In this document: positions 1,375-47,842 of the stretch, piece after piece
Layout of the letters: each line of letters starts with the position of its first letter
How positions within the stretch are numbered: position 1 is the stretch's first letter
From: Thalassospira profundimaris
GTDB taxonomy: Bacteria; Pseudomonadota; Alphaproteobacteria; Rhodospirillales; Thalassospiraceae
Length of the DNA: 64,000 nucleotides
Direction of reading: 5' to 3'
NCBI RefSeq assembly: GCF_003326795.1
Contig: NZ_JPWI01000012.1
Location: 1 to 64,000, forward strand
The notes under the pieces: generated by a model
The model's database searches: none
Told to the model about the DNA's origin: nothing
Seen by the model: the letters and a program-made list of their open reading frames with translations, nothing else
Made by a program: the position numbers and the translations under genes

Positions 1375-4346
1375 CCAGTTTCCGGATTGATAGCGGCACC
1401 CTGATTGACCGTGATGATGTGCGCAGTTTTACCTTTAATGGTGAAAAGCTTGCTGGCTTTGGCGGCGATACGGTTGCGTCCGCGCTGCTTGCCAATGGCA
1501 AACAACTGGTCGGGCGCAGTTTCAAATATCATCGTCCGCGCGGCATCCTGACCGCCGGGGCGGCGGAACCCAATGCGCTTTTGACCATCGGGCGTGACGG
1601 GCGGCGTGATCCCAATACGCGTGCGACCATGGCCGAACTGTTTGACGGGCTGGAAGCCAGATCACAGAATTGCTGGCCGAATGTGAATTTTGATATCGGC
1701 GCGATGAATGGTCTGTTGGGGCCGCTTTTGGGGGCGGGGTTCTATTACAAGACATTCATGTGGCCTGCGGCATTTTGGGAAAAGGTTTATGAACCCCTGA
1801 TCCGCAAGGCCGCCGGTCTTGGTCGGGCAAGCTATGATCCCGATCCCGGCTATTACGAGAAATGCTGGGCGCATTGCGATGTGCTGGTCATCGGTGCCGG
1901 GCCAGCCGGACTTGCCGCCGCCCTTACGGCCGGTCGGGCCGGGGCACGTGTGATCATTGCCGATGAAGGGGCTCAGCTTGGCGGCGGGATGCTGGCCGAG
2001 GGCGGTTTGATCGGGGATAAAGCAGCCGACGCGGTTCTGGCCGATATTGTTGGCGAGCTTCATGCCCTGCCCAATGTCGAGATCAGGAAACGCACCACCG
2101 TTTTCGGTGCCTATGATGATCAGGTCTTTGCCGCGGTCGAACGCGTGCAAAAGCATCTGCCAGAACAGGCGATCAATCCGGATCGGGCGATGGAACGGCT
2201 TTGGCGTATTGTCGCCGGGCATGTCATTCTGGCGACCGGGGCAGAAGAACGCCCGATTGTGTTTGGCGGTAATGATCGCCCCGGCGTGATGACGGCAGGT
2301 GCGATGCGCACATACCTTAATGCCTTTGGTGTTGCACCGGGCAAACGGGTGGCACTGTTTGCCAATAACAATCAGGCCTATCAGACCGCGATTGATCTTG
2401 AAGCGCGCGGGATCGAGGTTGCCGCGATCATTGATCCGCGCAGTTGCCCGGATATTGATTTTAACGGCAAGGCGCGGCTGATTGCCGGGGCCATGGTTCG
2501 TGATACTGCCGGACGCCGTGCGATCAAGGCCGTCACGGTCCGTCATGATGATGGTCGCGACGAGGTGATTGCGGTGGATGCGCTCGCAGTTTCGGGAGGC
2601 TATAGCCCGATTGTTCATCTGGCCTGTCATCGCGGGGCAAAGCCGGTCTGGTCGGATGAGTATGCCGGTTTCATGCCGCCGGAACAGTGCGACGGCATGG
2701 TGCCCGCCGGTGCGGTGGCAGGGTGTGAAGGCGTTGTTGCCTGTTTCGATGCCGGGGCAAAGGCCGTGCTGCCGGTTCTGGACGGTCTTGGATTTGGTGC
2801 GGAACCAGTCCGTCTTGCCGGGGTGGAAGGTGTCACTGCCAGTGCGCCCAACACGATGGCGATCTGGTCCGTACCATCAAGCAAGGGTAAGGCATTTGTC
2901 GATTACCAGAACGATGTGACGGCGGGTGATATCAATCTTGCGATGCGCGAGGGATATGATCATGTCGAGCTTGCCAAGCGTTATACGACAAACGGTATGG
3001 CGACCGATCAGGGCAAGACATCGAATGTGAATGCGATTGGTATTCTTGCGCAAAACAAGGGGGTTACGCCCGGCGACATCGGCACCACCACATTCCGCCC
3101 GTTCTATACGCCGGTGTCGTTCGGTGCGCTTGTTGGTGCGTCCAAGGGGTTTGAATTCCAGCCTGTACGCAAATCGCCGCTGCATGGTTGGGCTGCGCGC
3201 AACGGGGCAAAGTTTGTTGAAACCGGGCTTTGGTACAGATCAAGCTGGTTCCCGAAAGACGGCGAGACATTCTGGCGCGACAGTGTGGATCGTGAAGTCC
3301 TTAATGTGCGCGAAAATGTCGGTATTTGTGATGTTTCGACCCTTGGCAAGATCGAGATTTTTGGCGCAGATGCGGCAGAGTTCCTTAACCGGGTTTATTG
3401 CAATGCGTTCCTGAAATTACCGGTCGGCAAGGCGCGCTATGGCATCATGCTGCGCGAGGACGGCTTTGTGTATGATGACGGCACGACGAGTTGTTTGGCC
3501 GAAAATCATTACTTCATGACCACCACAACCGCCCTTGCCGCCGGTGTTCTGACCCATCTTGAGTTTTGTGCGCAAGTTTTGTGGCCCGACCTTGATGTGC
3601 GTTTGGCTTCTGCCACCGATCAGTGGGCGCAGATGGCGGTTGCCGGACCAAAGGCGCGTGATGTTCTGGCGCAAATCATTGATGACGACATTTCCAACGA
3701 GGCGTTCCCGTTCCTTGCGGCGCGTGAAGTGTCGATGTTTGGTGGGCGGCTTAGGGGCCGGTTGTTCCGTATTTCGTTCTCGGGCGAGCTTGCCTATGAA
3801 ATCGCGGTTCCGGCCGGATTTGGCGAAAGCGTTGCCGATGCCATCATGGTGGCGGGCGAGGCATTCGGTATCGCGCCTTATGGTACCGAGGCACTTGGCG
3901 TGATGCGGATTGAAAAGGGCCATGTCACCCATGCCGAAATCAACGGCACGGTGACGCCTGCCGATCTGGGCATGGGGCGGATGGTTTCAGCCAAGAAGGA
4001 TGATTTCATCGGCCGGGTGATGAACCTGCGCGAAGGTCTTGTTGATCCGATGCGCCCGGCACTGGTCGGGGTCAAGCCGAAATCACCAAGTGATAAATTC
4101 GCGACCGGATCGCATATCCTGAAAATCGGGGATGCGGTCAGCCTTGCCAATGATCAGGGCTATGTGACGTCGATGTGTTATTCGCCAAGCCTTGGTCATG
4201 CCATTGGTCTTGCCCTGGTAAAGGGCGGGCCTGAACGATATGGCGAGGAAGTCGTGATCTGGAACGGGCTTGCCGGGGCCAGCATCACCGGTGTCATTTG
4301 CAATCCGGCCTTTGTCGATCCAGAGAATGAGAAGCTCCATGCGTGA
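1371..4346 (+). CDS. soxA: Sarcosine oxidase alpha subunit
   Basis: Large subunit, 991 residues, normal for the family. Order seen: an N-terminal 2Fe-2S-like fold without the cluster (residues about 1-110), an NAD-binding Rossmann region with VIGAGPAGLAAAL near residue 170, an FAD/NAD oxidoreductase core, then a C-terminal GcvT/aminomethyltransferase domain from about residue 590, where tetrahydrofolate accepts the one-carbon unit. It starts inside the soxD stop codon (ATGA) and overlaps the start of soxG. The frame is intact throughout. Confidence 0.96.
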   Translation: MTSFRIDSGTLIDRDDVRSFTFNGEKLAGFGGDTVASALLANGKQLVGRSFKYHRPRGILTAGAAEPNALLTIGRDGRRDPNTRATMAELFDGLEARSQNCWPNVNFDIGAMNGLLGPLLGAGFYYKTFMWPAAFWEKVYEPLIRKAAGLGRASYDPDPGYYEKCWAHCDVLVIGAGPAGLAAALTAGRAGARVIIADEGAQLGGGMLAEGGLIGDKAADAVLADIVGELHALPNVEIRKRTTVFGAYDDQVFAAVERVQKHLPEQAINPDRAMERLWRIVAGHVILATGAEERPIVFGGNDRPGVMTAGAMRTYLNAFGVAPGKRVALFANNNQAYQTAIDLEARGIEVAAIIDPRSCPDIDFNGKARLIAGAMVRDTAGRRAIKAVTVRHDDGRDEVIAVDALAVSGGYSPIVHLACHRGAKPVWSDEYAGFMPPEQCDGMVPAGAVAGCEGVVACFDAGAKAVLPVLDGLGFGAEPVRLAGVEGVTASAPNTMAIWSVPSSKGKAFVDYQNDVTAGDINLAMREGYDHVELAKRYTTNGMATDQGKTSNVNAIGILAQNKGVTPGDIGTTTFRPFYTPVSFGALVGASKGFEFQPVRKSPLHGWAARNGAKFVETGLWYRSSWFPKDGETFWRDSVDREVLNVRENVGICDVSTLGKIEIFGADAAEFLNRVYCNAFLKLPVGKARYGIMLREDGFVYDDGTTSCLAENHYFMTTTTALAAGVLTHLEFCAQVLWPDLDVRLASATDQWAQMAVAGPKARDVLAQIIDDDISNEAFPFLAAREVSMFGGRLRGRLFRISFSGELAYEIAVPAGFGESVADAIMVAGEAFGIAPYGTEALGVMRIEKGHVTHAEINGTVTPADLGMGRMVSAKKDDFIGRVMNLREGLVDPMRPALVGVKPKSPSDKFATGSHILKIGDAVSLANDQGYVTSMCYSPSLGHAIGLALVKGGPERYGEEVVIWNGLAGASITGVICNPAFVDPENEKLHA

Positions 4347-4902
4347 TTTCCTGCTTAATAATGTCTCGCCGTTCCCGGCCAAGGCCGATGCCAACGGCCA
4401 TGCAGCGGTGCATATCGCACCGATTGCCACGGGATTTGTCACTCATGTTCTGGGTAAGGGCAATGCCAAGGCAGATGCGGCGCATCTGACCAAGCTGATT
4501 TCAGATATTGCACCGGAACTTGGCGCGACACTTCGGTCGCCATCGCCAGGGCAATGGTTCTGGGTCGGGGATTGTGATGTATCCCAGGGCCGCTTTGCCG
4601 AAATAAGCGGCCAGATACCCGGTGAATATGCGATTTCGGATCAGACCCACGGGCGGGTGCGGATCATGATTTCCGGCCCGCAGGTGCGCGATGTTCTGGC
4701 AAAGGGCGCGATGATTGATCTTGCTGATGGTGTCTTTGTGGTCGGCGCATCGGCGATGACCCAGATCGGGCATATCGGGGCGATGATCACGCGGACCGAT
4801 GATGATTGCTTTGAAATCATGGTGCTGCGAAGCTTTGCGGTCAGCCTGTGGCATGAGCTTCATCAGATGGCCGCCGAGTTCAACGGACCGCATGCAGGCT
4901 AG
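4339..4902 (+). CDS. soxG: Sarcosine oxidase gamma subunit
   Basis: Gamma subunit of the sarcosine oxidase complex, about 187 residues, with a GcvT-like fold (core around SPGQWFWVGD and GRVRIMISGPQVRDVLAKG). Two close starts exist: ATG 4327 and ATG 4339. I chose 4339, preceded by GAGAAG, but cannot decide firmly. Either overlaps the soxA stop at 4346. Last gene of the operon; no strong hairpin terminator is visible in the 115 bases that follow. Confidence 0.9.
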   Translation: MRDFLLNNVSPFPAKADANGHAAVHIAPIATGFVTHVLGKGNAKADAAHLTKLISDIAPELGATLRSPSPGQWFWVGDCDVSQGRFAEISGQIPGEYAISDQTHGRVRIMISGPQVRDVLAKGAMIDLADGVFVVGASAMTQIGHIGAMITRTDDDCFEIMVLRSFAVSLWHELHQMAAEFNGPHAG

Positions 4903-5017
4903 GGAGAGTGGTCTTGTCGTGATGGGTGGTTACGTTTTTTGACCATGAACCCTTGTGATGTCGTATTCAGGGCATAACTGATTGGACATAAAGATCAAAA
5001 CAAGGAGGACGATTGCG

Positions 5018-5710
5018 ATGACAAAGCTGAATGTGACCACACCGGACGGTTCGTTTGAGGCCTATGTGGCCATGCCTGCCACGCTTCCGGCACCGGTTGT
5101 TGTGGTTATTCAGGAAATCTTTGGTGTGAATGCGGTGATGCGCGGCATTGCTGATGATTATGCCAAGCAGGGCTATATAGCGGTTTGTCCGGATCTGTTC
5201 TGGCGGATCGAGCCGGGCATCGATATTACCGACAAGTCCGAGGCCGAATGGAAGCAGGCCTTTGGCTATTATCAGGCATTCAATGTCGATAAGGGTGTTG
5301 AAGATATTGCGGCAACCATGAAAGCCGCACGCGGTATTGAGGGGGCCAATGGCAAGGTCGGGGTTGTTGGCTTCTGCCTTGGCGGGTTGCTGACCTTCCT
5401 GTCGGCAACGCGGACCGATGGTGATGCCTTTGCGGCCTATTACGGGGGCGGCATGAATAATTACATGGCTGAAGCCGATAACATCAAAAAGCCGCTGATC
5501 GTGCATCTGGCAGGCAATGATGAATATATCCCGGCCGAGGCACAGGAGGTCATCAAGGAAGCGCTTGGTGATCATCCATTGACCGAGCTTCATATCTATC
5601 CGGGCCGTGATCATGCCTTTGCCCGCAAGGGCGGGGCGCATTATGACGCGGCCGATGCCGAAACCGCCAATGGCCGCACGGCGGAATTCTTTGAGGCCAA
5701 TCTGGTCTGA
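5018..5710 (+). CDS. Dienelactone hydrolase family protein
   Basis: Alpha/beta hydrolase of the DLH family, 230 residues. The nucleophile is the Cys of GFCLGG near residue 114, as in carboxymethylenebutenolidase. An Asp in GNDEYIP and the His of GRDHAF complete the likely triad. An in-frame upstream start at 4982 exists, but ATG 5018 has a strong AAGGAGG at good spacing, so it is preferred. No ring-cleavage genes lie nearby, so the true substrate is unknown. It is monocistronic and closed by a terminator. Confidence 0.88.
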   Translation: MTKLNVTTPDGSFEAYVAMPATLPAPVVVVIQEIFGVNAVMRGIADDYAKQGYIAVCPDLFWRIEPGIDITDKSEAEWKQAFGYYQAFNVDKGVEDIAATMKAARGIEGANGKVGVVGFCLGGLLTFLSATRTDGDAFAAYYGGGMNNYMAEADNIKKPLIVHLAGNDEYIPAEAQEVIKEALGDHPLTELHIYPGRDHAFARKGGAHYDAADAETANGRTAEFFEANLV

Positions 5711-7730: not shown

Positions 7731-7937
7731 CTGCTATCCGACGTGTCATTGGGGCGCGCCCGCGTTCGGGCATTTCCAACAATAGAGTATGCTTTGCATT
7801 GAATTGCAAGGGGCTGCGTCATCGATATGATCACACAAAGCATTCAATATACTGGCAATATACAGGCAGTCAGGTTGACCTTGGCCGGAAAAGAGAGGAA
7901 CCTGAAACATAACAGCATTTCACATCAGATCGGCGCA

Positions 7938-8678
7938 ATGTCCAAAGAACCTTTCAGTATCTCTGCTGCCCTTTCGCGGATCACCCGCCCGGATGATCAT
8001 TATGATGAGGGCACGCTTGAAGTCGATGAAAGCATGGAGCTTGAAGAGCTGGCAAACGGCGCGCTTGTGCCCAAGCGGGTCCGCGATCCCGATCTGACGC
8101 GGCAGAAGCTTCTGGATGCCGCCTTTGGCGAGGTCCGCCGGGCCGGATTTGGCGGCGCATCGATTGCCAATATCCTTGATGTCAGTGGCTGTACCAAGGG
8201 CGCGCTTTATCACCATTTCGCGGGAAAGGCCAAGCTGGTCAATGCCGTGATCGAGGAATGCCTGCCCGGTTATGTCGACGCGGTCTGGCTTGCCGAACTT
8301 GAAGATGTCGACGATATCCTGCCTGTCATGATGGCGCAGGTTGACCGGCTGGGCCGCGAAGATGCCCCCGAACTGCTTGAAGGTGGCTGTCCGCTGGCGC
8401 GGCTGGCATCAGGGGCGGGGGAGCTTGATGAAGGGCTGCGCAAACGCATTGACGGGGTTTACCGGTACTGGCGGCGCGGTTTGGCGTCCCATCTTGGCAA
8501 GGCGCAATTTAACAAGACTGTCCGCACCGATGTCGAGCCCTCGGCGGTGGCGGAATTCATGATCGCATCCCTGCACGGTTTCCTGACCCGCCCGCCTGCC
8601 TTGCGCAATCGCGAAACCCAGGATGCCTTTGCCCGCGAATTTGCCCGTTATCTGAATAATTTGCGTCCGGTTGCCTAG
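7938..8678 (+). CDS. TetR/AcrR family transcriptional regulator with N-terminal extension
   Basis: HTH at residues about 55-100: LLDAAFGEVRRAGFGGASIANILDVSGCTKGALYHHF, a classic TetR signature. The preceding 50 or so residues are an acidic, probably flexible extension (EGTLEVDESMELEELANG) unusual for the family. ATG 7938 was chosen over the upstream in-frame ATG 7827 because the longer version adds only non-conserved sequence, but the ribosome site (CGGCGC) is weak. C-terminal domain resembles the TetR_C group found in AcuR/NemR-like proteins. Target unknown; it lies between nadK (divergent) and the sulfur locus. Confidence 0.8.
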   Translation: MSKEPFSISAALSRITRPDDHYDEGTLEVDESMELEELANGALVPKRVRDPDLTRQKLLDAAFGEVRRAGFGGASIANILDVSGCTKGALYHHFAGKAKLVNAVIEECLPGYVDAVWLAELEDVDDILPVMMAQVDRLGREDAPELLEGGCPLARLASGAGELDEGLRKRIDGVYRYWRRGLASHLGKAQFNKTVRTDVEPSAVAEFMIASLHGFLTRPPALRNRETQDAFAREFARYLNNLRPVA

Positions 8679-8830: not shown

Positions 8831-9754
8831 ATGCGCTCTCTTATCGTTTCTGCAGTTGCGGTTGTGGCATTTGCCTTTGCTGGCAGCGCAGCCCAGGCTG
8901 AACGCCTGACGGAAAAGCCCCTGGTTGATGCCAACTGGGTTGAGGCAAATCTTGATAACCCGTCACTGGTTGTTGTCGATATCCGTTCGCTGACCAAAGA
9001 AGGCAGCCCTTATGATGCCGGTCATATTCCGGGGTCGGTCTATGCGCCTTATGGCAAGTTCGGCTGGCGTGCAAAGGTCGACAATGTTGTCGGCATGTTG
9101 CCGCCGCTTGATGTGATCTCAAACCGGATCGGATCGCTTGGTATCGATAATGACAAACAGGTTGTTGTGGTCCCGGCCGGTGAGAACAGCTCGGATTTCG
9201 GTGCGGCGACCCGTGTCTACTGGACATTCAAGGTTCTGGGGCATGACGCCGTGACCATTCTTGATGGTGGCCAGCGTGCATGGCTTGCCGCAGGCAAGGC
9301 TGTTTCGACCGATGCGGTTGCACCGGCAATTGTGGCCTTTAATGCCAATTTCCGCCCGGAACTTCTGGCGACCGCTGATGATGTGGCCAAGGCGCGCGAT
9401 AATGGTGTTGCCCTGATCGATGCGCGCCCGGTATCGCAGTATAAAGGTGAAACCAAAAGCGGTGTGGTTGCCCGTGCCGGTGCGGTTCCCGGTGCCAAGA
9501 ATATCGCGCAGTCGGAATTCTATAGCGATAAGGACGGTGCCTTTGTCGCGTCTGACGTGATTGAAGAGCTGGTTGCTGATGCCGGTGTCGCCAAGGATGC
9601 CAAGGAAATCACCTATTGCAATACCGGTCACTGGGCATCGGTCGCGTGGTTTGGCCTGTCCGAAGTGATGGGCAACAAAAACACTGCGATGTATGATGGT
9701 TCCATGACCGAATGGGCCGCTGATCCGAGCCGCGAGATGGTCATTCCGCAGTAA
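8831..9754 (+). CDS. Periplasmic double-rhodanese sulfurtransferase
   Basis: Exported thiosulfate/3-mercaptopyruvate-type sulfurtransferase, 307 residues. Signal peptide at residues 1-22 ending AAQAE. Two rhodanese domains: the first (about 25-150; VVVDIRSLTKEGSPYDAGHIPGS) lacks a catalytic Cys, the second (about 180-300) has the active Cys in YCNTGHWAS. ATG 8831 has GGAGACAGG upstream; the in-frame ATG 8816 is itself part of that ribosome site. It precedes a YeeE/YedE transporter and a Cys-rich repeat protein, so a role in moving sulfane sulfur at the membrane is inferred. Confidence 0.9.
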   Translation: MRSLIVSAVAVVAFAFAGSAAQAERLTEKPLVDANWVEANLDNPSLVVVDIRSLTKEGSPYDAGHIPGSVYAPYGKFGWRAKVDNVVGMLPPLDVISNRIGSLGIDNDKQVVVVPAGENSSDFGAATRVYWTFKVLGHDAVTILDGGQRAWLAAGKAVSTDAVAPAIVAFNANFRPELLATADDVAKARDNGVALIDARPVSQYKGETKSGVVARAGAVPGAKNIAQSEFYSDKDGAFVASDVIEELVADAGVAKDAKEITYCNTGHWASVAWFGLSEVMGNKNTAMYDGSMTEWAADPSREMVIPQ

Positions 9755-9860: not shown

Positions 9861-11072
9861 ATGTCAGAAACGACACTTAAAGTTCGCCCGGATGCTTCGG
9901 GTTTTGACTTTGACAAGGGACCGGCCGCGATTACGGCGGTCTTGTTTGTCATTGTCGGCATCGCAATTGCGCAGGCCGTGGATCTGCATCAGGCCGTTCT
10001 TTATGGCCTTGGCGGATTGCTGGGCATTTCCCTTTATCATGCATCATTCGGTTTCACCGGTGGCTGGCGGCGTTTCTCGGTCGAGAAGCGTGGACGCGCC
10101 ATGCGCGCGCAGCTTTTGATGATCGCGGTCGCGGCGGCGGCCTTTATTCCGATGCTCGCCCTTGGCAGTCCGCTGGGCAATCCGATTGTCGGGGCGGTGG
10201 CGCCGGTCGGGACATCGGTTCTGGTGGGGGCCTTTTTGTTTGGCCTTGGCATGCAGCTTGGCGGCGGATGCGGGTCCGGCACGCTGTTTACCGTTGGTGG
10301 TGGCAGTACGCGCATGTTGCTGACCCTTGTGTTCTTCATCATCGGGGCGGTGATCGGTACGGCGCATTTGCCGATGTGGCTTGAATTGCCAGCCCTGCCG
10401 CCGATGAGCTTGGGACGTGAATTTGGTGTTGGCGGCGGACTTGCCGTGACCTTTGGTGGTCTGGCATTGGTAGCGCTGATTACGGTGATTGTTGAAAAGC
10501 GTGCGCATGGATCACTTGAAGCAACGCCCAAGGCGCCGCGTGCCGGTTTGGCGCGCCTGTTCCATGGCCCCTGGCCGCTGGTCTGGACCGGTTTGCTGTT
10601 GGCGGGGCTTAATATCGCGACACTTCTGATCGCCGGTCATCCATGGTCGATTACGTTCGGTTTTGGTCTTTGGGGCGCGAAAATCGCCCAGGGCATCGGC
10701 ATTCCGGTCGAGACCTGGGAGTTCTGGAACTGGGCCGGTCCGGCCAAGGCGCTTGGCAATTCGGTTCTTGAAGACAATACGTCGGTGATGAATTTCGGCA
10801 TTGTGATTGGTGCGGCCTTTGCTGCTGCCCTTGCCGGTAAATTCGCGCCCAAGGTTTCCGTGCCGATGGCATCGCTTGTGGCGGCGGCAATCGGCGGGAT
10901 TTTGATGGGCTATGGCGCGCGTCTGGCGTTTGGCTGCAATATCGGTGCGTTCTTTAGCGGCATCGCATCGGGCAGCGTGCATGGCTGGCTGTGGTTTGTG
11001 CTGGCCTTCGCTGGCAGTTGGATCGGTATCGCCCTGCGTCCGGTCTTTGGGATGGATGGGTTCCGGAAATGA
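9861..11072 (+). CDS. YeeE/YedE family thiosulfate (sulfur) transporter
   Basis: Integral inner-membrane protein of 403 residues with about ten hydrophobic helices in two internally similar halves. The two hallmark Gly/Cys motifs are present: GGGCGSGTLFTVGGGS near residue 133 and GYGARLAFGCNIGAFFSGIASGS near residue 350. In TsuA-type proteins the cysteines of these motifs handle thiosulfate (family knowledge). Its stop overlaps the start of the NPC-repeat gene in ATGA. With the upstream rhodanese it forms a sulfur uptake or transfer unit; thiosulfate as substrate is inferred. Confidence 0.88.
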   Translation: MSETTLKVRPDASGFDFDKGPAAITAVLFVIVGIAIAQAVDLHQAVLYGLGGLLGISLYHASFGFTGGWRRFSVEKRGRAMRAQLLMIAVAAAAFIPMLALGSPLGNPIVGAVAPVGTSVLVGAFLFGLGMQLGGGCGSGTLFTVGGGSTRMLLTLVFFIIGAVIGTAHLPMWLELPALPPMSLGREFGVGGGLAVTFGGLALVALITVIVEKRAHGSLEATPKAPRAGLARLFHGPWPLVWTGLLLAGLNIATLLIAGHPWSITFGFGLWGAKIAQGIGIPVETWEFWNWAGPAKALGNSVLEDNTSVMNFGIVIGAAFAAALAGKFAPKVSVPMASLVAAAIGGILMGYGARLAFGCNIGAFFSGIASGSVHGWLWFVLAFAGSWIGIALRPVFGMDGFRK

Positions 11073-11698
11073 GCGAGAAAAACACATTTCTGTTTGGTGC
11101 GGTATTCCTGGCTGCGACCGGTGGTGTCGCGCTTGATCACTACAGCCATACCGCCAATATCCCGGCAATCTCCAACCCGGCAATCTCTAACCCGGCACCG
11201 GCAAGGCTTCCGGCAGCAGGCGCAAATCCGTGCGCAGCCAATCCTTGTTCTGCGAACCCGTGTGGCGCAAATCCGTGTGCCGCCAATCCATGCGGCGCGG
11301 GTTACAACCCCTGTGCGGCGGGATATAATCCCTGTGCTGCCAACCCGTGTGCGGCCTATAACCCGTGCGGGGCGGCAAATCCCTGTGCGGCGCGCCTCAA
11401 TCCGCGCAATCTCGGGAATCCTTGCGCGGCCGCCAATCCCTGCGCTGCGTACAACCCGTGCAGTCTATGTAGTCCGTGCAGTGCTGGCAATCCATGCGGG
11501 GCAGGGGCAATGAACCCGTGCTCGGCAAACCCCTGTGCCGCCTATAATCCTTGTGGTGCTGCCAATCCGTGTGCGGCTCATAACCCGTGCGCCGCATCGC
11601 CTTGTGCGCCAGCACCGGCTGCTAATCCATGTGCCGCTTCAAACCCTTGTGCAGCCTATAATCCGTGCGGGGCAGCGAACCCCTGTTCGGCGAACTGA
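11069..11698 (+). CDS. Membrane-anchored NPC-repeat cysteine-rich protein
   Basis: 209 residues. One hydrophobic segment at residues 8-22 (FLFGAVFLAATGGVAL) is a likely membrane anchor or uncleaved signal. After a short linker with degenerate NPA repeats, residues 53-209 are almost only Asn-Pro-Cys repeats spaced by Ala, Gly, Ser and Tyr: I count 23 NPC triplets and 26 cysteines. There is no globular domain. It overlaps the transporter stop codon (ATGA), so it is co-translated with it. I do not recognise a characterised family. A Cys-rich chain beside a rhodanese and a sulfur transporter suggests sulfane sulfur carriage or thiophilic metal binding; this is inference. Confidence 0.85.
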   Translation: MSEKNTFLFGAVFLAATGGVALDHYSHTANIPAISNPAISNPAPARLPAAGANPCAANPCSANPCGANPCAANPCGAGYNPCAAGYNPCAANPCAAYNPCGAANPCAARLNPRNLGNPCAAANPCAAYNPCSLCSPCSAGNPCGAGAMNPCSANPCAAYNPCGAANPCAAHNPCAASPCAPAPAANPCAASNPCAAYNPCGAANPCSAN

Positions 11699-11755: not shown

Positions 11756-12586
11756 ATGCTGTTGGCGAATAAAAAGTGGACTGATGACGAGCGATATGCT
11801 GCGCTGAAGCTTTATTTTGAGCTTGAGTTTGGTCAGTTCCATGCCCGGAACAAGAATGTCATTCAGCTTGCAGAGATATTAGGTCGGACGCCAGGCTCAA
11901 TCGCCATGAAGCTTGGGAATTTTGCGAGCCTAGATCCTACTCTTGATCGCGGAGGATTGAAAAATGTCAGTGCCGCAGATCGAGAGTTAATGGCGCGCTT
12001 TCATAATCAGCCCGCGCGTGTGATTGACGATATTGAAAGAGCTGTTGACCGGGTCGAATATCAAATCAGTTCAGATCCCACGTCGTTTCAGGCGGATAAA
12101 AATCAAGTCGGATTCAGAGACCAAGAAATCGGATTCGATGTATCCGGTAGGGCGACGACGGTTATGCGTGTCCGGGAAGAGCGTTTAAACCAAGGATTCT
12201 TTAGGCGCGCGGTTCTATCTGGATATCATTTCCAGTGTTGTGTCTGTCGCATGAAGTTTGTGCGTCTATTAGAGGCGGCGCACATCAAGCCTCACCATCA
12301 AGATGAAACGTATCGATTGCGACCGGACAATGGTTTGTCGCTATGTCGTAACCATCACAAGGCGTTTGATGAGGGGTACTGGACGCTTGGGAGTGGCTTT
12401 TCTATTGAGCTTGATCCAAGGCTGCACAAGTTAGGAAGGCATGATCAGGCTATAAATGACCTACTGATCGTGCATGAGGGGCGGCAAATTGAACAACCCT
12501 TTCGCTACCTCCCTTCAGCGGAAGTAATTGACTGGCATCGAGAAAATACATTTGCGAAAAACGAGCCGGTGTTAGGGAAGGAGTGA
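11756..12586 (+). CDS. HNH endonuclease
   Basis: 276 residues. C-terminal HNH domain at residues about 155-210: zinc-type Cys cluster (C161, C162, C164), AAHI (175-177), N192, then LCRNHHKAFD with H200 and H201. This arrangement is typical of HNH nucleases related to modification-dependent or stand-alone restriction enzymes. The N-terminal region (KKWTDDERYAALKLYF and ILGRTPGSIAMKLGNF) is the predicted DNA-binding part seen in such proteins. No methyltransferase is adjacent. Composition is less GC-rich and uses rarer codons (AGA, ATA) than its neighbours, suggesting horizontal acquisition. ATG 11756 has AGGAG three bases upstream, rather close. Confidence 0.86.
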   Translation: MLLANKKWTDDERYAALKLYFELEFGQFHARNKNVIQLAEILGRTPGSIAMKLGNFASLDPTLDRGGLKNVSAADRELMARFHNQPARVIDDIERAVDRVEYQISSDPTSFQADKNQVGFRDQEIGFDVSGRATTVMRVREERLNQGFFRRAVLSGYHFQCCVCRMKFVRLLEAAHIKPHHQDETYRLRPDNGLSLCRNHHKAFDEGYWTLGSGFSIELDPRLHKLGRHDQAINDLLIVHEGRQIEQPFRYLPSAEVIDWHRENTFAKNEPVLGKE

Positions 12587-47342: not shown

Positions 47343-47372
47343 TTGTGAAACCGGTGTTAGTTGACCTATATA
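47343..47372 (+). promoter_or_regulatory. Predicted promoter of the tmRNA gene
   Basis: TTGTGA (47343-47348), 18-base spacer, TATATA (47367-47372), giving initiation near the 5' end of the acceptor piece. Confidence 0.55.
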
Positions 47373-47377
47373 GGGCC

Positions 47378-47705
47378 TGTCGGGGCAACCCGACTACGGC
47401 GCTAAACTGCGTGACAGAATAGGCTTTACGGACCCGGGGGCGGTACCCGGCGGCTCCACCAAATTTACGGTTGCCCGACTCAGGCAATCTTCGTGGGGCC
47501 GAAACAGGATCGACGTGAGCAGTAAAAGTCAATGTGGGCGCTCGGCATGGTACCACCGCATCGGGCCAATGTTTGTAAATGCAAACGACAACAATGCTCC
47601 GGTTGCTGTTGCTGCGTAAGCGGTACTAGCACCAAAGCGAAATTCCGGTTGCCGGGAGCGGTAATTTGGTGGGGGACGGGGCACCTAGCAACAGAACGCC
47701 CCACT
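47378..47705 (+). ncRNA. ssrA: tmRNA, circularly permuted two-piece form
   Basis: Rescues stalled ribosomes and tags the nascent protein for degradation. The acceptor piece comes first and ends in GGCTCCACCA at 47461. The coding piece begins GGGGCCGAAACAGGATCGAC at 47495, and GGGGCCG pairs fully with CGGCTCC of the acceptor stem. The intervening 47462-47494 segment would be removed. The tag frame 47581-47619 encodes ANDNNAPVAVAA then stop. The T-stem CCGGG/CCCGG closes a loop GGCGGTA, not the usual TTCRANY, a feature I believe is shared by alphaproteobacterial two-piece tmRNAs. The 5' and 3' outer ends are estimated. Confidence 0.93.
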
Positions 47706-47842
47706 CTTGTATTTATTCCCCGCTTCGTTATGAATAGAGTCCATAAAGGCACACCAAGATGTAATTGGTGGGCAAAGATGCTATATGACAATGACGGGGT
47801 TTGCCGGGACGTGCCGGTATCCCGCCAGATACAGGATTACTG

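Follow-up and report, generated by a model that had tools for sequence, protein, structure and literature searches.

We identified in Thalassospira profundimaris a gene for a membrane-anchored, cysteine-rich protein carrying an array of Asn-Pro-Cys (NPC) repeats, whose start overlaps the stop of a YeeE/YedE-family sulfur transporter gene (hereafter YeeE). All coordinates refer to positions 1 to 64,000 of contig NZ_JPWI01000012.1 (assembly GCF_003326795.1), and this whole 64,000-nucleotide stretch is called the window. Based on comparisons of sequence and gene order, the protein is real, conserved and tied to sulfur import more widely than is visible from the window. As its function we propose that it is a tethered, disordered periplasmic thiol chain that handles sulfane sulfur together with the products of its operon, with a protein of the DUF6969 family either preparing it or receiving sulfur inside the cell; we assign this reading a probability of roughly 0.4. 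The elements of the protein are as follows.

11069-11698, plus strand: NPC-repeat, cysteine-rich, membrane-anchored protein (open reading frame, repeat count, AlphaFold model and anchor alignment)
11069-11152, plus strand: conserved anchor, residues 1-28 (eight-sequence alignment; helix 3-28 in the AlphaFold model)
11225-11686, plus strand: NPC repeat array, residues 53-206 (triplet count)

By count, the open reading frame (ORF) encodes 209 residues with 23 NPC triplets and 26 cysteines, as an earlier note on this DNA had stated, and with 25 Pro-Cys pairs, proline preceding 25 of the 26 cysteines. The same note's pattern of one cysteine every 4-7 residues was nearly right: of the 25 distances between successive cysteines, 18 are 5 or 6 residues and 20 are 5-7; the others measure 3, 3, 8, 9 and 13. 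When residues 51-209 were shuffled 10,000 times, no shuffle held more than 5 NPC triplets. The 23 triplets are encoded by 12 different 9-mers, and the repeat units reported by TRF match by 70-85%. This diversity of 9-mers indicates that the repeat is kept at the protein level rather than being a fresh DNA tandem duplication and, together with the shuffles, that selection on the protein maintains the pattern.

In the AlphaFold model (mean pLDDT 43.6), helix 3-28 is the main ordered element, in agreement with the single hydrophobic anchor and the lack of a globular domain read earlier from the sequence. The ten-residue blocks past residue 30 have pLDDT values of 31-45, and an ordered solenoid of NPC repeats was rejected on these values. 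The protein has no match in Pfam, NCBIfam or PDB at E ≤ 1, and membership in a known family was dropped accordingly; DUF2282 (bufferin 1, PF10048) is thus among the families without a match, and the EGKCG motif is absent from the sequence. A tblastn search with the protein against 72,556 plasmid records gave no match; since a plasmid of Skermanella does carry an NPC gene (L183 in our numbering of loci), this search has low sensitivity for such repeats.

Three genes precede the NPC gene on the same strand.

7827-8678, plus strand: TetR-family regulator (PF00440/PF16925)
8834-9754, plus strand: exported double-domain rhodanese (PF00581 in two stretches; PDB 3aax, E = 6e-35; signal peptide read by eye)
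9861-11072, plus strand: YeeE/YedE-family sulfur transporter, 403 residues (PF04143, 252 bits; aligned to TsuA-TsuB, 8j4c)

The ORF coordinates confirm the ATGA shared by the YeeE stop and the NPC start, and the two PF00581 matches bear out the periplasmic double rhodanese that had been placed upstream, its export being judged from the signal peptide; its second domain carries a YCNTGHWAS loop. The transporter scores 252 bits against a gathering score of 27 for PF04143 (Sulf_transp), and its cysteine motifs GGCxSG (here GGGCGSGT) and GCNIG align with those of TsuA (8j4c). Nevertheless, it scores far below the NCBIfam cut-offs for TsuA (76 of 400 bits for the equivalog and 56 of 645 for the exception model), so we treat it as a member of the family, not shown to be TsuA. 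The TetR gene is likely to encode the local regulator of the operon.

An NPC match was present in 29 of 29 Thalassospira genomes. In the Thalassospira-type loci of our genome contigs scan (L001-L019, including one Rhodospirillales metagenome-assembled genome), the order rhodanese-YeeE-NPC was found in 18 of 19, the remaining locus being cut by a contig end, and the ATGA junction is kept in all 18 readable loci. A TetR relative lies upstream in 17 of the 19 (L010 is cut by a contig end, L012 has none and in L011 it is displaced). The 18 orthologues range from 125 to 233 residues and from 12 to 24 NPC triplets, with a steady cysteine fraction of 0.11-0.14 and an open frame in every case. Within the anchor, M1, N5, L8, G10, A16, T17, A21, D23 and H24 are invariant across eight sequences (Thalassospira, two other genomes and Sinorhizobium meliloti, a symbiont of alfalfa; L143 was left out). 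A shadow ORF or assembly artefact was rejected, given the open frame, the synonymous variation and the constant cysteine fraction in 18 of 18 orthologues. It could also be argued that the repeat is a low-complexity passenger, expanding with no biochemical role of its own, as the spread of 12-24 triplets among orthologues and the lack of a predicted fold might suggest. The constant cysteine fraction, the open frames, the 12 synonymous forms of the 23 triplets, the anchor residues invariant across genera and the recurrence of the partner genes already disfavour this explanation, which we regard as very improbable.

Given the sulfur-protein partners, the anchor and a translation coupled to the importer, the simplest reading is that the NPC protein is a tethered sulfane-sulfur acceptor or buffer. 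The anchor would hold a chain of about 26 thiols on the outer face of the membrane, beside the sulfur importer. The exported rhodanese would make or move persulfide sulfur, the chain would accept or buffer it as Cys-persulfide next to the transporter, and YeeE would import sulfane sulfur or thiosulfate into the cell; here the topology, the persulfide loading and the direction of flow are what we infer. DUF6969 would most likely prepare the Cys-repeat proteins before export, by metal loading, thiol protection or modification, or receive the sulfur inside. In the available excerpts of PMC11582611, the YeeE-like SoxT imports sulfur that is proposed to come from the periplasmic carrier SoxYZ, and an Acinetobacter yeeE-yedE-pdo2 operon is described in excerpts of PMC7315123 as being controlled by a persulfide sensor.

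The same operon occurs outside the genus. In three alphaproteobacteria (L120, L143 and S. meliloti pSymB, L181), rhodanese and YeeE are followed by a small gene whose product has a similar anchor and a smaller number of [N/A/S]PC repeats, and DUF6969 is present in each of the three clusters. On pSymB of S. meliloti 2011, rhodanese (3197-4306) and YeeE (4387-5628) precede, with an ATGA overlap, a small ORF of 124 residues that begins MTTRNTLLFGAALAAATAAVAVDHHNH, carries [A/M]PC motifs and 4 cysteines, and overlaps the start of DUF6969 at its end. A single BLASTP comparison of this ORF with the window anchor gave 15 of 27 identities (E = 4e-4). In another S. meliloti record, the flanks are annotated as sulfurtransferase, YeeE/YedE family protein and hypothetical protein; the small ORF is unlisted in its gene table, which describes itself as incomplete. 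In L120 (genome G409), rhodanese, YeeE, an NPC gene with 8 cysteines and DUF6969 stand in this order; the NPC ATG lies 11 bases past the YeeE stop (an overlapping TTG is also present), and the NPC stop overlaps the DUF6969 start. The order YeeE-NPC-DUF6969 is likewise seen in L125 (G244), where the contig ends and the NPC gene overlaps the DUF6969 start. In L143 (G043), rhodanese-YeeE is followed after 110 bases by an ORF of 128 residues that has a similar anchor (ATGAVATDHLAHT) and 4 SPC triplets, and DUF6969 is divergent from the rhodanese. A tree of 33 YeeE sequences (the window, 4 Thalassospira loci and 28 others; the fragments L125, L126 and L127 were left out) places the Thalassospira proteins, L120 and L143 in one group (100/99). 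With L143 labelled as lacking NPC, the NPC label requires 4 changes on this tree, at least 2 of them forced by starred branches.

At large, the genome contigs scan yielded 213 NPC-encoding stretches, of which 79 loci were kept; by title, they belong to alpha-, beta-, gamma- and deltaproteobacteria, Mariprofundaceae and Rokuibacteriota. The non-Thalassospira set comprises 56 loci, each covering about 6 kb per side or reaching the contig end, so that a missing YeeE means none in that stretch. In this set the commonest partner is a DUF6969 relative (30 of 56), YeeE occurs in 5 (L020, L025, L035, L038 and L059) and rhodanese in 2, one of them a fragment at a contig end. Based on phmmer searches, the protein that carries the NPC repeats also contains a SoxA-like haem domain in 26 loci and a P460-like domain in 17. 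In a Pfam check of 10 proteins, PF21342 was above the cut-off in 6, and PF16694 was above it in L027 and below it in L061. A profile built from eight of these haem domains finds SoxA (1h31) with E = 8e-10, and its invariant cysteine aligns with a cysteine of SoxA that we take to be a haem ligand there.

Other recurrent neighbours among the 56 loci are a cupredoxin-like protein of about 160 residues (7 loci), multihaem cytochromes (7), formylglycine-generating enzyme (FGE)-like proteins (7, weak in L069), DUF3179 (6), YHS (3) and TlpA/redoxin-type proteins (3; L020, L029 and L035). The protein of about 160 residues is conserved and exported, ends in YSCPLNPTPDY and is found near YeeE and NPC genes (e.g., L020:8736-9212, plus strand); it occurs in 7 of 29 Thalassospira genomes and was not found in the present one. 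Its name is a guess: Cupredoxin_1 matches weakly in 8 of 11 copies (best E = 0.011), and the best PDB hit for its fold is an unrelated synthase (E = 0.21). The FGE-like protein, exported and with a C-terminal CGVC, recurs beside DUF6969 and NPC genes (L106:6914-7786 and L023:4761-5648, both minus strand); for the L023 copy the nearest NCBIfam models are EgtB and SenA, far below cut-off. In L127 (4697-5488, minus strand), NPC repeats are joined to a domain resembling phosphatases (PTP-NADK, E = 8e-16; BLH_phosphatase, 3e-9) beside YeeE.

The association with DUF6969 was surveyed in 385 alphaproteobacterial genomes. DUF6969 was found in 90 and NPC in 46, where up to 12 candidates per genome were scored, so that NPC genes were missed and 46 is a lower bound. 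Both occur in 40 genomes, so that DUF6969 is carried by 40 of the 46 NPC genomes, compared with 90 of all 385 (Fisher p = 6e-23, uncorrected for kinship). The two genes lie within 3 kb of each other in 20 of the 46 genomes, against a chance expectation of about 0.14 pairs. For YeeE and NPC, a distance within 3 kb was seen in 10 of the 42 genomes searched (about 0.18 pairs expected), two of the ten being Thalassospira; G059, G201, G223 and G259 were left out for in-frame stops or poor NPC matches. These proximity counts are based on 61 of 71 YeeE rows (the ten weakest being omitted) and mainly on the DUF6969 rows of NPC-positive genomes, with repeated pieces of one NPC gene merged. The earlier note had reasoned that homologues found nowhere near rhodanese or YeeE genes in other genomes would speak against a sulfur function. 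Outside Thalassospira, YeeE does lie near relatives of the protein: in 5 of the 56 loci and in 8 of the 40 alphaproteobacterial genomes searched (about 0.18 pairs expected in all).

Loci L120-L139 were picked for an NPC gene near YeeE or DUF6969 and serve as examples rather than as a sample; for L140-L159 we took, in list order, the first 20 genomes positive for DUF6969 and negative for NPC. Five of these 20 do carry an ORF with at least 4 NPC triplets near DUF6969. By eye, a Cys-rich, exported-looking neighbour is present in 9 of the 20 (L141, L142, L147, L149, L150, L152, L153, L156 and L158), and L143 has the ORF with 4 SPC triplets. By a fixed rule, a Cys-rich exported ORF lies within 2 kb of DUF6969 in 6 of these loci and farther off in none. 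The motif beside DUF6969 may differ from NPC, as in KCGACGAK (L147), AEGCC (L158) and GGSHAGDCGG (L141). On plasmids, the Skermanella NPC gene follows DUF6969, and in Burkholderia glumae a CGAKC-type protein precedes it (L182). As the flanking residues vary in L141, L147, L158 and L182, cysteine, usually as Pro-Cys, is what stays.

DUF6969 (PF22308) was found in 29 of 29 Thalassospira genomes and in 0 of 14 control genomes. The copy of this genome lies on another contig (C6:6054-6665), with an FGE-like gene bearing the CGVC motif, in divergent orientation to another NPC gene, which encodes 102 residues. Across 23 sequences, the family conserves H53, H71, H73, E77, H80, H82 and H114 (H71, H73, H80 and H82 in the numbering of the L023 protein) and an NRWVT block, in which distant plasmid copies differ. 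The AlphaFold model is confident (pLDDT 94.2, pTM 0.92). Foldseek found nothing in PDB at E ≤ 0.001 (best E = 0.43), and the best sequence profile match was an unrelated tRNA ligase (E = 0.037); a known fold was rejected on these grounds. No signal peptide is obvious by eye, and the protein seems to be cytoplasmic. We found no paper naming DUF6969 among the open-licence articles of PMC.

Since DUF6969 is the commonest companion and seemingly cytoplasmic, it might prepare the cysteines prior to export, much as MNIO enzymes act on bufferins. In its stronger form, DUF6969 would alter the repeat cysteines in the cytoplasm in the manner of MNIO enzymes, and the modified polymer would bind metal or sulfur, so that it may coexist with either function. 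The overlap of an exported Cys-repeat gene with the DUF6969 start in L120, L125 and L181, the invariant His/Glu cluster in a confidently predicted structure unmatched in PDB, and a repeat motif that varies around a constant cysteine are consistent with this idea, and excerpts of PMC12452194 offer a precedent in the EGKCG-repeat oxazolins. Against it stand the DUF6969 genes with no Cys-rich or PC-repeat neighbour visible by eye, namely in 10 of the 20 sampled loci and in two Azospirillum records (L180 and L184); catalysis and modification are putative, and we consider a modified polymer doubtful.

The sulfur interpretation of the earlier note holds in part. It is strengthened by the rhodanese clusters of L120, L143 and S. 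meliloti, and weakened by the 54 of 56 loci without rhodanese and by DUF6969 as the commoner partner. Several further observations count against sulfane-sulfur handling. In 51 of the 56 non-Thalassospira loci no YeeE is present in the stretch; the DUF6969 loci with no Cys-rich neighbour, including those of Azospirillum, fit it poorly; and the orthologues of S. meliloti and L143 have 4 cysteines each, few for a buffer. SoxY (PF13501) was not found in this genome by a search that works in the genus (9 of 29 genomes positive), and an NPC system as part of Sox was dropped on this result; with no SoxY here nor in 19 others of the 29 genomes, the chain would be a Sox-independent carrier. A SoxA/TsdA cytochrome (PF21342) was also not found in this genome, a weak negative given that the search matched no control genome either. 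The last of these observations concern metals. In Leucothrix arctica (L030:5683-8487), the gene for a DUF2282 protein with an NPC tail is followed by those for another DUF2282 protein, for an MNIO enzyme (PF05114) and for DUF2063; DUF2282 proteins are known precursors of copper buffers. Additionally, arsenosugar-type glycosyltransferases (TIGR04282/TIGR04283) are encoded near NPC or DUF6969 genes in Stutzerimonas and Halomonas (L051:3317-4772, L053:7402-8274 and L076:7573-8244; L053 and L076 above cut-off, L051 just below), and one is annotated next to DUF6969 on the B. glumae plasmid (L182:6667-8033); a metalloid link is possible.

These metal-related loci favour the main rival of sulfur handling, a thiophilic metal or metalloid buffer, in which the cysteine chains would bind periplasmic Cu(I), As(III), Zn or similar in the manner of bufferins, DUF6969 would load or mature them, and the link to YeeE would be secondary, copper and sulfur stress being coupled. 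The presence in L142 of DUF2282 and MNIO/DUF2063-like genes within a few kb of DUF6969, the cupredoxin-like neighbours, weak as their Pfam matches are, and the FGE-like neighbours point the same way, and formylglycine-generating enzymes are termed cuproenzymes in excerpts of PMC12452194. The conserved partners in the window and in the closest relatives are, however, sulfur proteins. No metal pump or metal sensor was found among the four scanned neighbours (TetR, rhodanese, YeeE and the HNH gene that follows the NPC gene), and MNIO (PF05114) had no match among these four, the remainder of the genome not being searched. The protein itself matches neither DUF2282 nor any other Pfam family, and the SoxA-type haem fusions would be unexpected for a metal buffer, which is possible and, in our estimate, somewhat unlikely.

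A redox role was also considered: oxidation would turn the chain into a disulfide mesh on the membrane face, or the chain would serve as a thiol redox buffer, similar to CdeC of Clostridioides difficile. According to excerpts of PMC7677010, CdeC has a 6-NPC repeat, redox-sensitive self-assembly and disulfide-dependent lamellae. The TlpA/redoxin-type neighbours in three loci would agree with such a scaffold. Nevertheless, CdeC comes from the spores of an unrelated phylum, a coat would hardly be expected next to a transporter and on a single transmembrane anchor, and the YeeE/rhodanese operon would be left unexplained; we consider this role improbable.

A tethered cysteine chain whose translation is coupled to that of the importer would be a direct candidate for what keeps sulfur atoms in the periplasm and delivers them to YeeE-type importers. 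We know of no carrier for YeeE-type import in bacteria without SoxYZ. The link to DUF6969 gives a lead to the function of a family whose confidently predicted fold Foldseek did not match in PDB, and the S. meliloti operon makes the question testable in a standard laboratory bacterium. The most far-reaching form of the proposal is that DUF6969 is a new cytoplasmic maturation enzyme for exported cysteine repeats, and that the matured chain is a new tethered poly-Cys reservoir from which sulfur or metal is handed to YeeE. The system would then be Sox-independent, widespread across Proteobacteria and found in S. meliloti as well; this combination we hold to be unlikely as a whole. Among open-licence PMC papers, we found no description of the NPC-repeat family, the motif matches being CdeC and an unrelated radiology paper.

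Directly past the NPC gene lies an HNH_2 endonuclease gene (11756-12586, plus strand), whose product weakly resembles phosphorothioate-DNA-binding restriction enzymes (68 bits, cut-off 180). A relative is present in only 3 of the 19 Thalassospira-type loci, so the gene may be a recent arrival. Between the two genes, a perfect 15-base inverted repeat was seen by eye (11712-11726/11736-11750, 9-base loop); with no T-run after it, it is not a standard terminator. A scan for promoters and terminators gave 5 and 7 sites, respectively, where shuffled sequences gave 1.9 and 4.8; none was convincing. Elsewhere in the window, ARAGORN reports a tmRNA at 47369-47710 (plus strand), marked tmRNA*, a star that presumably denotes a permuted two-piece gene; it adjoins thymidylate synthase-like and DHFR-like ORFs named by eye.

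Among known proteins, CdeC shares with the window protein a cysteine-rich sequence and, in excerpts of PMC7677010, a 6-NPC repeat; the likeness is one of motif only, unaligned, and CdeC is a spore exosporium protein from another phylum. In the c cytochromes of the SoxA/TsdA type, the haem domain found fused to NPC repeats in 26 of the 56 loci is the point of contact; it is absent from the window protein. DUF6969, present in all 29 Thalassospira genomes, is the recurrent NPC partner. Bufferins (DUF2282) and EGKCG oxazolins with their MNIO enzymes are likewise exported, Cys-rich and sometimes repetitive proteins with a dedicated cytoplasmic partner, and in L030 an NPC array is borne by a DUF2282 protein; fusions of bufferins to cytochrome and FGE domains are reported in excerpts of PMC12452194. 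The window protein differs from them in having no DUF2282 match or EGKCG motif and in its partner family, which is DUF6969 rather than MNIO. Finally, the importers TsuA and SoxT share their transporter family and cysteine motifs with the YeeE of the window. In those systems the partner is TsuB or SoxYZ, whereas here, in a genome where SoxY was not found, it would be a tethered poly-Cys chain, together with DUF6969.

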